Of a stretch of DNA of 64,000 bases, positions 3,254-62,069 are shown in pieces. A program made the position numbers and the translations under genes. Below the pieces are notes generated by a model. It had not been told where the DNA came from. It ran no database searches and saw nothing but the letters and a program-made list of their open reading frames with translations. Each line of letters begins with the position of its first letter. The first letter of the stretch is position 1. The stretch lies in contig OZ017767.1 in the NCBI GenBank assembly GCA_963969345.1, positions 1,922,001 through 1,986,000 on the forward strand. Direction: 5' to 3'. The stretch is from Turbatrix aceti (lineage: Eukaryota; Nematoda; Chromadorea; Rhabditida; Panagrolaimidae).

Positions 3254-4031
3254 GAGACAACAATTATGTATGTCAGTCTATTCCGCGTGATTGCGCACAC
3301 GCAATGGGCAGGTTACGGTGGCATTCTATCACATGCACATTCACACTTTGTGCACCCAACACGAAGCGGGAGGGATAAAATTGTCTGGGTATTTTTTTTG
3401 TTTAGCTACATATAACATGCTGTCATTTTGGCACGCAACTAAACATCTTTGTTTCGGTGCATACTACAGTTTTTATGTAAAAAATTGCGTGAAGACATTC
3501 AAAGAACTTTACTTTTTACTTTACTTTACTTTGTATAATTGTGGAAAGTAATGAACTAATTGTAAGTTGCTTTTATAATAATCTTGTAAGTGCAAGGCCG
3601 CTTACAAGTGTTTTACAAAAACTGCATACAAAAGTTGCATGTTCTATACATACAATAAACTGTCAAATACAATAAAATACACATATGTATTTAGTTTTTG
3701 CGTTGAACATTCTCGTGTTGAACATGGAAACAACCATCTCTTCTCAAGCAGTGTTTAAACTTTTATTTATTGAATGAGACAATTAAAAGATTACTGTCAC
3801 GGCTTTTTGTATTTGTTTATAAATACTAGATATTTATGCTAGTCAGACTTGTTACTGACTTTGTACCCTGAATTACCAAGAAAAAATTTCATACTGTAAT
3901 TCGAATAATTGTATTTATTATACAAATGTTATCACCAATGTGAACATTTTCTTTAACTGATATTCCTTTAAACCTATTTTTTGGCATATATTTTAAAAAA
4001 ATTTGTGTGATTTTATAAACCATGTTGTAAA
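3254..4031. other. Intergenic spacer between receptors C and D
   Basis: A 780-bp AT-rich spacer. A short TTTAC/TTTACT simple repeat lies near 3510-3532. It contains one plus-strand AAAACTG (near 3615) and one CAGTTTT (near 3470). No gene or RNA was recognised. Confidence 0.4.
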
Positions 4032-5120
4032 TTATTGTTTTACAAATGTATGATTACGCGTTGATAAACTTACACCATTGTGTTTTATATTTGAATTAAT
4101 TTGACTAATAAGTTGATGACTTTTTTTAACTAAAACGTATTTTTCCAAGCAAGGGATACGATAGAACTTTGCAATACTCTGTCGAAAATTTGATATGAGA
4201 AAAAATGGAGTATACATGACAAAGATAAAAAGCACCTGACAGATATTGTACACATTGTTCACTAACCAGTGGATAACAACATTGTGGACAAATATTCCAG
4301 CAATGCTGGCTACAGACTGAATGACAAAGATAACAGACAACACTACAGAATGAATGAGCAGCCGGTTTTCAAAATTTCGTTGGCGTTTGCTGACGCTTTT
4401 GACTATGATTCCCATCCTGGAAGAAAGCGAAGCTGCAACTCCGAGAAGCAATGCTGTAATTGCAGTGACGAAATCCGAGAATCCAAGGATAAAGTCAGGG
4501 TCCATGTAACTGTTGTTTGATAACGAGAGGCATAAATGTGTTGAGTGCCAGCTACACGGCATGTTGGATCCCTGATAGGCGACCAATACAAATGGATAAA
4601 CTGCAATCAGCATCATAAATCCAACCGTAGTTTTCATGTTAAACATCTGCTTTACATGTCGCCACAAAATCAGTCCAGAAAATCTATTAAAGGCTGAAAT
4701 CAGATTCCAAATACCAATTGAATAATTCATGTGCCAGTTGATGAATTCAGTAAAACTGTCAAATACCATGAAAATTTTGTACCGGATAGGAGAATAGCTC
4801 CGGTAGTCCCAGTCAACGTCATGAAGGGTCTCAAAGCAAAGAAAAGTGATGCAAACGTGAACCATACCTGCCGTAAAAATTACGAAATAAGAACTTCTCA
4901 TATTATTTTTCTTTGTCAAAATTTGGATAATTAAAAACAGAATTACAGGTAGCAACAAAATCACATTGATGATAGATAATATCTCTGATATCTGTTTCAG
5001 GATTTTGAACACGATATAGAGCGTGGGATAATCACTGTCGTAATCAATATCAGCGTCATCGGTTGAGTAGAATTCAGACGCGTCATCTTCAGCAAGTGAA
5101 GTGTTCGTCATTGCATACAC
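4032..5120 (-). CDS. SRG-superfamily-like chemoreceptor (paralogue D), intronless
   Basis: A single-exon 362-aa seven-transmembrane receptor very close to paralogue C (same KKNNMRSSYF, WDYRSYSP, NSIGIWNLISAFNRF, QGSNMPCSWH, ASLSSRMG, FENRLLIHSV and CQVLFIFVMYTPF blocks). The N-terminus is acidic (EDDASEFYSTDDADIDYDSD) and would be extracellular. A second Met three codons in (MTNTSL) is an equally good start. The gene lies about 850 bp upstream of gene C, in the same orientation, and is the first member of the array in transcription order. Expected role is plasma-membrane chemosensory GPCR; subfamily and ligand are not determinable by eye. Confidence 0.83.
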   Translation of the reverse strand: MYAMTNTSLAEDDASEFYSTDDADIDYDSDYPTLYIVFKILKQISEILSIINVILLLPVILFLIIQILTKKNNMRSSYFVIFTAGMVHVCITFLCFETLHDVDWDYRSYSPIRYKIFMVFDSFTEFINWHMNYSIGIWNLISAFNRFSGLILWRHVKQMFNMKTTVGFMMLIAVYPFVLVAYQGSNMPCSWHSTHLCLSLSNNSYMDPDFILGFSDFVTAITALLLGVAASLSSRMGIIVKSVSKRQRNFENRLLIHSVVLSVIFVIQSVASIAGIFVHNVVIHWLVNNVYNICQVLFIFVMYTPFFLISNFRQSIAKFYRIPCLEKYVLVKKSHQLISQINSNIKHNGVSLSTRNHTFVKQ

Positions 5121-6164
5121 AGACAGTAAGAATAAAATAAACTGAAGAAAGTATTATGTTCATACATTTTTAGGCTCAAAAAAAGTAAATTCTTATGTCT
5201 AATCCACAGAGCTTTGCATAAACCAAATAAATAAGCGGGTATTCTTATCGTAATAATTATTTATTCAGTACTTGAATTCAATGTGCGAGCACATTATAAA
5301 TAAGTCTGCATTGATTCGAACTCTGTGATTTGAACATCAGTATCATTTTTGGTGTGCCGAACGCATAAAAACAGTTTTTTTGTAAATATAAATGTGAATA
5401 CATATACGGAATTTCCTCCCCTTGTATCATGCAATGTCTGAACGGTTGTTTTTTGAGCATTTAAAAGATTATCCTTTTAAGTTTCAAGATAGAGATTAAT
5501 CAGACTTGTTTCAGAATTTGTTTTTTCAGGCACAAAGTACATCATAAACTAAAGTAAAGAAAAACTGATTTAATAAATGTGAAAATGATTATGTATAATT
5601 TGCTCAAAACCTATGTAAATCAGGCCATCCAAAAAGAACGCAATCAGAGTTTTAACTCTAAATAGTTTGTTTGGTAAACAGTTTTTTTTAAATATATTTA
5701 ATTAACTGTCGAAAACAATACTTCCAGTTGGTCACAAACCGACGGCAAAACAGGTGATGTTTTAGCATAAGTATAAATAATGTCAAAAGAGAATTGAATA
5801 ATCACTGGAAAGTCATACACAACAAAATTTTTTACCAGAAAATCGATTTGCAGTTTTATTAAAATACAAATGCAAAAAAAACATACATAGTAAATAAAGA
5901 TAAATTAAAGCTATGTAATCTATGTATACTTGGTTATAAGCATCTTTGTTGTACAAAAAAATACTCGTGATCAGGGTTGTAATCTCTTTGAATGACTGTG
6001 GCGGATGTTGTGGTGGTGAAAGGAGGTAGAAAAGGGGAAAATCTGGGGGCCAGGATATTCCATAAAATTTTAAAATTGTAATTTAAAATAAAACATGGTG
6101 GGAAGTACAAAAATGATAAAACTGGTACGATTGACTTTTTGAAGTTGCTGCATCATTTTGTATA
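5121..6164. other. Intergenic spacer (upstream of receptor D, downstream of the dopamine receptor)
   Basis: About 1 kb of AT-rich DNA. It contains both orientations of the short motif (CAGTTTT near 5371, 5680 and 5850; AAAACTG near 5560 and 6117). The 3' UTR of the dopamine-receptor-like gene should lie in its right part. No other gene was seen. Confidence 0.4.
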
Positions 6165-60155: not shown

Positions 60156-60242
60156 ATATGGCATGGCTGCTGTTGTTCCATTGTTTAAAAAAAATAAAAT
60201 ACACAATTATTACCTTACAACATTTTGCAAACAATCTTTGAA

Positions 60243-61699
60243 TTAAGAATTAAACTGACATGCGACGTTATGAGTTTCCTGGTAGAACATAATTTCTTGA
60301 AAAAGCAAAGCTGAAAAAAAAATTATATAATTTATCCTACAAATAAATGCTATCAAACCTTTCCACTCATCAACGCTGTGTTTAGACATTTCAACAGTTA
60401 CGTTATAATAATCAGCGGGAGGAGCCTCAACTTCTTTGGTGTCGTACCACATATTTACGTACGGATGACGCAGCGCTTCGGAAACCGAAATGCGATGCTC
60501 CGGATCAATTACCAACATTTTGGCAATCAAATCTCGGGCGTTTTCCGCTTTAATGTCTGAAACAAAAATCGATATAAAAAAGATGTAAGTAAAAACTGAA
60601 ACAAACAATCCAAATACAAAAAAAAGATTAAAACTGAAACAAACCTGAAAGTTCAGGATCCAGATTACGAGGAAATAAACTGTCGGGAAAAATGGATTCC
60701 CATGGCGCTGGATTATAGTAGCATCTACTTTTGATGTAGTTTTGCACATCCGTTTGAAGTCGAGATATAAACTGGGAATTAGGGGTTCCAACGACTTGAA
60801 TAATTTTCATCCATTGATCAACGTAATCGGTGCCGGGGAAAAGGACGCGCCCGGTGAGCAACTCGGCAAAGATGCAGCCAATTGACCAGACATCAGCTAA
60901 AAAAATATTTATAATACAAAAAATTTAACTAATAATCAAACCATTCTGATTGTATCCAATTCCCAGAATGACTTCTGGGGCCCGATAGTATCGTGTAACA
61001 ACGTACTGCGTCATAAACGTGTTATTTTCAGAGCGTGCAAGTCCAAAATCAAGAATTTTCAGTTCGCATTTTTGATTGATGGCTATGTTGCTGGGTTTAA
61101 GATCCTGTAAACACAAAAATTCAACATTAAAAAATTAATTTTTTGTCAAAAAAACTTGCTCTATGAATGATGCCAGCCTTGTGCAGATGCTGAATGCCAC
61201 AGAGCATCTGGTAAAGCAAAAAAGATATAACTTTGTGGTGCAGCGCGTTCTCAATACCGTATTCAAGATTGTTTTCCATGTACTCCATGACCAGGTAAAT
61301 ATCTGAGAATTCGGCAAGGTTGTTTTGGGGCGTGAAAACGTTGAGAAGTTTGATGACCTAAACTTTATTTTTTTATTAACTGTTCAGTATTGTTATAAAT
61401 ACTTACGTTCTGATGATTGACCAAATTCATAATTACAAATTCGCGATAAGCTCGTTTTGCACGGACAACGTCAGAAAACGGACGAGTCAGTTTTTTGATG
61501 GCAACTTTTGTACCCGTTATTCGATCGACTGCGCTGCTGAAACAAAATCATAATTTGGATAAATAAATAAATTTGAAACAAAAAATTCATACAATACGTC
61601 GCCCTGTGCGCCAGAGCCAATCTTTTTAAGATTTTTGTAGCGTTTCAGCACGCGAATGCTGGTGCCGTTGAGTTCAACGTTGTAAAAAACACTTTCCAT
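60243..61699 (-). CDS. JNK-family MAP kinase with TQY activation motif
   Basis: Seven exons: 61699-61593, 61536-61407, 61357-61160, 61104-60942, 60896-60645, 60556-60359 and 60310-60243 (1116 nt, 371 aa). The N-terminus ([31 protein letters not shown]) and the stretch [19 protein letters not shown] are JNK-type. Catalytic elements are present: glycine loop GSGAQG, VAIKK lysine, HRD split by an intron, DFG, and APE. The activation loop reads [16 protein letters not shown], so the dual phosphorylation site is Thr-Gln-Tyr instead of the JNK Thr-Pro-Tyr. The intron after HR begins GCAAGT, a GC-AG intron; the other five are GT-AG. The C-lobe has [11 protein letters not shown] and the typical [12 protein letters not shown]. 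JNKs act in stress signalling and neuronal development, downstream of MKK4/7-type kinases. The gene converges on the receptor at 60155 with 87 bp between stop codons. It could be a divergent paralogue rather than the main jnk-1 orthologue. Confidence 0.9.
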
Positions 61700-62069
61700 T
61701 TTTGTATGTTTTCTAAAAAAAACTGCAATCCATAAAAGTGAAAAACTTTTTAAAGTTTAAAACACGAATAAAAAAGATTGCAATAAAGCGAAAAGATCCG
61801 CGTCAATATAAGACGATGACAACAAAAATTTTTTTTATGAGCCTTTTTTTTGCACTTATTTTCAGCGTTTACTTTATTACAACGTAAAGTGCTTCAAAAA
61901 AGCATATTCCATCGTAGTTGCCCCGAAACTCGGAATCATTTTCCATGATGCGTAATTATGGCAAATTTACTTTTCAGACATGTTCGAGACGCTTAATTGC
62001 CTAAAATCTCTTTTTTTCTGATAACCTGAGTCGCGAACGACCTGTTGACGCTTCTTCTCTTTTTATTCG
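61700..62069. other. Upstream region of the JNK-like kinase
   Basis: About 370 bp with one AAAAAACTG near 61722, which reads CAGTTTTTT in the sense of the kinase gene. No promoter element could be identified. Confidence 0.4.

Follow-up and report, generated by a model that had tools for sequence, protein, structure and literature searches.

The stretch of Turbatrix aceti DNA analyzed here (64,000 nucleotides, C2:1922001-1986000, where C2 is contig OZ017767.1; hereafter the window) carries a short word, CAGTTW, that is arrayed largely on one strand at a time over blocks that measure about 20 kb. The word is sharp, it has a characteristic average positional context, its arrays are restricted to chromosome domains, and outside the window its polarity is independent of gene orientation (13 genes). 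Such one-strand packing of a motif in a promoter-like context hints at an undescribed small-RNA gene cluster; no description of such a motif array was found in searches of an open-access library. With a probability of about 0.5, we read the arrays as short RNA polymerase II (Pol II) units making RNAs like the PIWI-interacting RNAs (piRNAs), without a Ruby motif and in a clade IV-like nematode.

The polarity was first apparent from the heptamer CAGTTTT, which occurs 61 times in the window, its reverse complement AAAACTG occurring 52 times. The ratio of the two is 10:46 before 37.9 kb, 50:3 from 38.0 to 60.2 kb and 1:3 beyond, and the hand counts of an earlier note on this DNA (about 45:10 and 2:50, with AAAACTG named first) were nearly exact when set against the recount of 46:10 and 3:50. 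In the first two parts, the 46 and 50 copies on the favoured strand compare with 9.1 and 7.4 expected under a first-order Markov model, and with 4.9 and 3.2 expected from base composition. T-run asymmetry is not the source of the polarity, because the rate at which runs of at least four T are preceded by CAG itself differs between strands, being 46/674 (6.8%) and 50/507 (9.9%) on the favoured strand and 10/458 (2.2%) and 3/267 (1.1%) on the other. In addition, the right flank has an AT skew of about zero, yet holds one CAGTTTT and 26 AAAACTG. An artefact of T-runs or AT skew was rejected, and the orientation-dependent, non-random signal that the earlier note proposed persists beyond both T-run asymmetry and Markov background. 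Genome-wide enrichment, in contrast, was rejected. Across 59.9 Mb (five large contigs of 11.4-12.7 Mb), CAGTTTT is found 28,379 times (0.47/kb, against 1.77/kb in the window) and is thus rarer than its mirror TTTTGAC (34,251), indicating that the enrichment is regional.

CAGTTTT is polar, as the earlier note had it, but the true word is CAGTTW, joined by a weaker CAGTGW. Words were counted in 12 oriented blocks (138.8 kb pooled) and in a background set of 44 loci (L001-L038 and L041-L046, 195.7 kb); since L001-L008 and, less directly, L041-L042 had been picked by the CAGTTTTTTTTT pattern, the CAGTTW background is if anything inflated. CAGTTT is distributed 392:57 between favoured and unfavoured strands (background 52 per strand) and CAGTTA 148:19 (background 21), while CAGTTG (31:40) and CAGTTC (27:20) are not so divided. 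Among the 15 one-base neighbours of CAGTT, 14 are non-polar (|z| at most 2.1). The fifteenth, CAGTG (148:72, z 5.1), shows polarity only when A or T follows (115:40, made up of CAGTGA 66:20 and CAGTGT 49:20, vs 33:32 for CAGTGC/G). These hexamer and neighbour counts define the word as CAGT, then T (or G), then A/T, and after CAGTTW one more W is preferred. CAGTTW is scarce in exons, at 1.39/kb (26 sites in 18.7 kb) compared with 4.51/kb outside them (412 sites in 91.4 kb), the exons having been picked by eye from open frames. Its reverse strand, WAACTG, is similar to a Myb-type site.

Segmentation of 84 kb (C2:1912001-1996000, comprising the window, the left flank L039 and the right flank L040) yields the blocks listed in the table below. 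The first minus block runs leftward through L039, where its first site is at C2:1912066, and the last, sparse within the window, continues densely into L040, counting 9 plus and 51 minus CAGTTW from 60252 to 73065 and reaching at least C2:1995065. The earlier note had described the polarity as spanning the whole window; this is so in the main blocks but not in a long terminal repeat (LTR) retroelement that interrupts the array, nor in the neutral piece at 33.9-37.9 kb.

Same-direction pairs of the motif at 50-80 bp (653 genome-wide) can be set against 227 head-to-head pairs, from which about 454 same-direction pairs (twice 227) would be expected without polarity; scaled to the 84 kb, the excess would correspond, as a rough estimate, to 1-1.4 Mb of equally dense DNA and about 5,000 sites. 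Triples of CAGTTW, whose gap ranges were guided by counts on the same 84 kb, number 277 genome-wide. Among the first 100 listed, they cluster at C1:9.44-9.90 and C1:12.33-12.52 Mb and from C2:0.86 to at least 2.43 Mb; stricter triples (82, all listed) extend the C2 domain to 2.90 Mb and suggest C5:9.68-9.91 Mb as a further domain, and many matches on C4 and C6 look like tandem or dispersed repeats. Clustering in megabase-scale domains is thus seen in both sets, although the domains are patchy. Within them the direction is kept over long distances. Among the matches listed, signs on C2 form 9 runs among 42 triples vs 21.6 expected (z -4.0), and those at C1:9.44-9.90 Mb form 4 runs among 30 vs 15.9 (z -4.5), both z values coming from adjacent matches that are not fully independent. 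The longest apparent block (14 plus triples at C2:1.078-1.681 Mb) may reach 600 kb, as judged from sparse matches and two fetched loci. Such long one-strand blocks may stem from inversions that broke up an ancestral direction, or else from a direction-reading machine.

The earlier note placed the motif in the sense of the nearest gene. Inside the window this is true of all seven placed genes; moreover, the second polarity switch (59956 to 60252) coincides with a gene boundary, and the first spans the neutral stretch, with which a chemoreceptor gene overlaps in its 5' part. Outside the window, however, the rule is rejected: among 13 genes with a Pfam match in the two flanks and in six 10-kb loci chosen by triple matches, that is by motif density (144 kb in total with the window), 5 run with the motif and 8 against it, so that no sense-strand bias is evident in these sampled domains (13 genes only). 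Eleven of the 13 lie above the curated Pfam cut-off, the Srg-like (E 0.0011) and DUF1757 (E 0.0007) genes below it, and two open-frame sets without Pfam match in L039 (one plus, one minus, in a minus block with counts of 14:0) were omitted. A single motif polarity is kept across 10-20 kb stretches that hold genes of both orientations. In L051, for instance, plus-strand motifs (positions 6437, 6507, 6688 and 6748) stand between the exons of a minus-strand BMS1 gene, and in L049 and L052 AT skew follows the genes while the motif does not.

These data bear on the view that the motif serves or records transcription of its host gene, whether as an intronic signal for germline licensing akin to the periodic A/T clusters (PATCs) of Caenorhabditis, as a mark of the sense strand, or as a footprint of transcription-coupled mutation, all of which the earlier note had raised. 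Licensing is at odds with an orientation that does not follow the host gene outside the window (5/13), and sense-strand marking with a single polarity held over genes of either orientation. A mutational footprint is likewise unsupported, since its skew should spill into near words, yet there is almost no such spill-over. Despite the agreement inside the window, we regard a host-gene signal as highly improbable.

The surroundings of single sites were compared with 1,000 draws of matched NNNTTW sites from the same blocks, using 10 of the 12 blocks (left out were the neutral piece at 33-37.9 kb and the sparse one at 60.3-64 kb); the choice of control words, gap ranges and position windows followed inspection of the data, and the block-by-block repeat is the sole held-out check. 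At 514 favoured sites, AAA is raised at -28..-21 (0.119 vs 0.077 matched, z 6.7), and at +8..+25 G is depleted (0.111 vs 0.151, z -9.9) with C unchanged (z -0.3). Both signals recur in 10/10 retained blocks relative to the block average. At 62 unfavoured sites the corresponding values are 0.075 for AAA and 0.158 for G, and the A-tract was not found at these sites, at 200 background CAGTTW sites or at 1,432 other favoured-strand T-runs; at favoured CAGTGW sites it is present but weaker (0.106). The G-poor stretch has a change-point at +26, and ATAAAA at -32..-25 exceeds the domain average 3.1-3.3-fold. Between about -60 and -21, T-tracts too exceed that average, which partly just reflects the non-coding location of the sites. 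Favoured sites avoid one another below 20 bp (10 pairs vs 43 expected from jittered positions) and prefer 60-80 bp (72 vs 44) and 80-100 bp (65 vs 43), a pattern not seen in three control words; no periodicity was found beyond this avoidance and preference.

The A-tract followed by CAGTTW resembles a TATA box plus initiator, and the site surroundings point to transcription starting at the motif itself. CAGT, the core of the enriched word, fits YRNT and would hold the start. Taken together, the A-tract or TATA-like box, CA+1GT, an asymmetric stretch of short-RNA size and a unit-sized spacing are most simply explained as a short Pol II unit, given that a strand-asymmetric composition over at least 18 bases fits the expectation for a short transcript better than that for a protein footprint. 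This last point also concerns an alternative in which CAGTTW and its A-tract are bound by an architectural or tracking protein that needs direction, such as a loop extruder or a pairing or segregation factor. Although long single-polarity blocks independent of genes (the sign runs on C2 and C1), the preferred spacing of 60-100 bp and the scarcity of CAGTTW in exons would all suit a polar protein array, a downstream stretch that is G-poor and C-neutral would not be expected of a DNA-bound protein. Furthermore, the domains stand out on C1, C2 and perhaps C5 and not on every chromosome, leaving a one-per-chromosome pairing-centre role unsupported. We consider such an array unlikely; the polar DNA-tracking sequence that the earlier note had suggested is still conceivable. 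Alternatively, the sites could be TATA/initiator starts of longer unstable transcripts, that is pervasive one-way initiation of domain-wide non-coding or enhancer RNA. The context does resemble a core promoter, and ordinary Pol II starts are described as sharing the YR initiator with piRNA loci (PMC9683057); however, the G-poor tract stops near +26, which suggests a short unit, and a spacing of 60-100 bp is tight for long transcripts each used separately. This renders the alternative quite unlikely in our judgment.

In the reading that we favour, each favoured CAGTTW would be the start of a very short Pol II unit of about 60-80 bp, laid out as upstream T-tracts, then an A-tract or TATA-like box between roughly -32 and -20, C(-1)A(+1)GTTW as the initiator and a G-poor stretch to about +26. 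Hundreds of such units would share one strand within AT-rich chromosome domains, both in introns and between genes, whatever the direction of the host gene, and would give rise to thousands of short capped RNAs, which may then be trimmed to small RNAs beginning UUW. We infer that transcription begins at these sites, yields a short product and feeds a piRNA-like silencing pathway. Nematode 21U-RNAs are reported to start at the T of YRNT and to derive from capped precursors of 25-29 nt that begin 2 nt upstream and come from megabase-scale clusters (PMC6436959, PMC9683057). Two published cases are close in other respects: intragenic piRNA loci of P. pacificus are given as 97% intronic, with sense about equal to antisense (PMC6436959), and the 21-22U RNAs of S. 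ratti (clade IV) are described as forming clusters of 1 and 2.7 Mb, with AT-rich sequence but no motif upstream (PMC9203780). The host would be a relative of Panagrolaimus and Panagrellus. A PSKH-like kinase in the window has its top match at 85% (a jgi protein), its closest named ones being Panagrolaimus sp. PS1159 (84%) and Panagrellus redivivus (83%), and a Na/Ca exchanger exon is nearest to Steinernema carpocapsae; protein similarity places the window near Panagrolaimus and Panagrellus, clade IV nematodes. A more specific version, in which a lineage reported to have lost PIWI and piRNAs runs a piRNA-like system from thousands of Ruby-less CAGTTW mini-genes, in blocks of one direction that span 20 to perhaps several hundred kb and whose strand is set by a reader of chromosome direction, is offered as a tentative idea.

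Several observations weigh against a piRNA-like origin of the arrays. The upstream signal is weak, with AAA 1.5-fold over matched sites and carried by a minority of sites, and TATAAA, 3.1-fold at -28, is raised likewise at -44 and so is not position-specific. A T-poor gap at -20..-6 (TTT 0.061 vs 0.103 matched, z -7.6, in only 8/10 blocks) was dropped as support for polarity-specific use because the 62 unfavoured sites show it equally (0.065). In the genome-wide spacing test, 922 matches were counted at the TATA distance and 627 at the control one, which would seem supportive, but the excess is not specific to the domains, C1:0-7.08 Mb alone having 100 vs 53 among the matches listed, many of them apparently repeats, and it was likewise dropped. 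The Ruby motif GTTTC/CTGTTTCA, which lies about 42 nt upstream in type I loci, is not enriched at favoured sites (GTTTC 11 vs 8.0 expected at -50..-41 and 4 vs 8.0 at -40..-31; CTGTTTC 0 in both intervals), and no other extended upstream word was found around them. AT content is 0.70-0.77 from +8 to +29, within a stretch that is AT-rich between +5 and about +30 and is not preceded by GC-rich sequence, so that the high-then-low melting signature of pausing reported for nematode piRNA loci is not seen, as judged from composition only and not from the published melting calculation. With the Ruby motif absent and the pausing signature not seen, the arrays are not assigned to the known type of piRNA locus. 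Piwi_N (PF23278) had no match in the genome in a search that had no positive control. According to PMC4323106, clade IV nematodes, Panagrellus among them, have lost both PIWI and piRNAs, and 5'-U-biased small RNAs were not found outside clade V. Finally, the piRNA clusters of C. briggsae (PMC9683057) and the 21-22U clusters of S. ratti (PMC9203780) are described as occupying both strands.

The genome has 39 untyped Piwi-domain matches, some of which form a tandem run at C1:6734291-6770580, an expansion of the Argonaute family. Scanning the window with Rfam (at gathering threshold) and for tRNAs returned nothing. In connection with programmed DNA elimination, CAGTTTT was noted within a satellite probe for fluorescence in situ hybridization in PMC13370393.

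Mixed-size blocks with sharp switches could also arise if ancient repeats or insertions had left CAGTTW in a fixed orientation and were later cut by inversions. Only about 7 bases are strongly shared between sites, however, with weak composition trends in the flanks, and the mobile elements that do lie in the array, namely the LTR element with its identical LTRs and a fold-back element, hold few or unpolarised copies. Repeat remnants are a very unlikely source of the motif. The LTR element, with reverse transcriptase (RVT_1), RNase H, integrase and protease domains and LTRs of 300 nt each (28005-28304 and 32687-32986, 100% identical), is a young insertion inside the Str-type chemoreceptor gene, which it splits and which lies partly inside the neutral piece. 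The fold-back element (34332-36200) has 765-nt arms, 98% complementary and 339 nt apart. Other repeats were noted along the way. At 62060-63587 there is a second, nested inverted repeat, whose inner arms span 350 nt and are 99% complementary, with further arms outside them. The AT-rich DNA at 1340-1640 contains a GGCCCGGG-rich stretch, spotted by eye, that is bounded on either side by related words and resembles an inserted repeat. A 75-bp element dispersed on C1 (e.g. 82947-83021) carries CAGTTTT at one end and AAAACTG at the other; it is probably a small transposon that has nothing to do with the arrays.

Table. Polarity blocks and genes of the window (window coordinates), and motif and gene strands at the sampled loci outside it
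Feature	Position	Strand	Details
Minus-polarity CAGTTW block	1..33783	-	Segmentation 20 plus:130 minus from -9934 to 33783 (including 10 kb of L039)
LTR retroelement, not part of array	28005..32986	+	CAGTTW 1 plus, 3 minus in 5 kb
Neutral stretch between blocks	33935..37941	.	CAGTTW 11:10; largely fold-back element
Plus-polarity CAGTTW block	38033..59956	+	Segmentation 90 plus:13 minus; CAGTTTT 50:3
Minus-polarity block, sparse in window	60252..64000	-	CAGTTW 7 minus:3 plus within window
Two Srg-like open frames	window	with motif	One Pfam match below cut-off, one by likeness
Rhodopsin-type G-protein-coupled receptor gene	window	with motif	
Str-type receptor gene	exons 27567-27911, 33120-33680, 36259-36735	-	With motif
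Na/Ca exchanger gene	window	with motif	
Membrane-protein frame	59.2-60.2 kb	with motif	No Pfam match
Kinase gene	window	with motif	
L040		motif minus 26:1	Srg-like and BTB genes plus
L047/L048		motif minus 60:5	PDZ gene minus (counted once)
L049		motif plus 21:1	C13 peptidase minus, dual-specificity phosphatase plus, TTC39 minus
L050		motif plus 19:4	PI4-kinase and ML-domain genes plus
L051		motif plus 15:2	SH2 protein, BMS1, DUF1757 all minus
L052		motif plus 18:3	Phospholipase C minus, C2H2 plus

Should the sites prove to be small-RNA genes, a clustered, transcribed small-RNA repertoire with start sites readable from the genome would exist in a lineage described as free of PIWI and piRNAs, and what replaced piRNAs outside clade V could be tested directly. 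A polarity set block by block and independently of genes would then be a new property of small-RNA clusters and would raise the question of what selects the strand over long distances. If they are protein sites instead, they would form a dense polar DNA signal on domains of animal chromosomes, for which we know of no parallel.

Among known systems, the PATCs of C. elegans introns and the KOPS and Chi sequences of bacteria offer A/T tracts in non-coding DNA and polarity, but the CAGTTW array differs from them in that it is not tied to gene sense, is a discrete word with a positional context and is limited to domains. The arthropod core promoter shares the CAGT word, here a putative start, and has a TATA-like box at about -30 to which a weak average signal corresponds here, TCAGTT being the fly initiator consensus; unlike it, the putative units here are arrayed in hundreds to thousands and do not stand at protein genes. 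The dispersed intronic piRNA loci of Pristionchus are likewise intronic and overall about equally sense and antisense to host genes in the account of PMC6436959, whereas the sites here are clustered in domains with one polarity per block and lack the Ruby motif. With the type I 21U-RNA clusters of Caenorhabditis, as described in PMC9683057 and PMC6436959, the arrays share megabase-scale domains on few chromosomes, many separate putative short units, a YRNT at the presumed start and A/T-rich surroundings; they depart from them in having no Ruby motif near -42, the presumed start word itself being the strong signal, in their weak A-tract or TATA-like box and long one-strand blocks, and in belonging to a clade reported to lack PIWI, and they are known from DNA alone. 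The 21-22U RNAs of Strongyloides ratti differ in having been sequenced and in lying on both strands, and no start word is given for them in the account of PMC9203780, but they share with the arrays a clade IV host, clustering (there over 1 and 2.7 Mb), AT-rich upstream DNA and the lack of an upstream motif.

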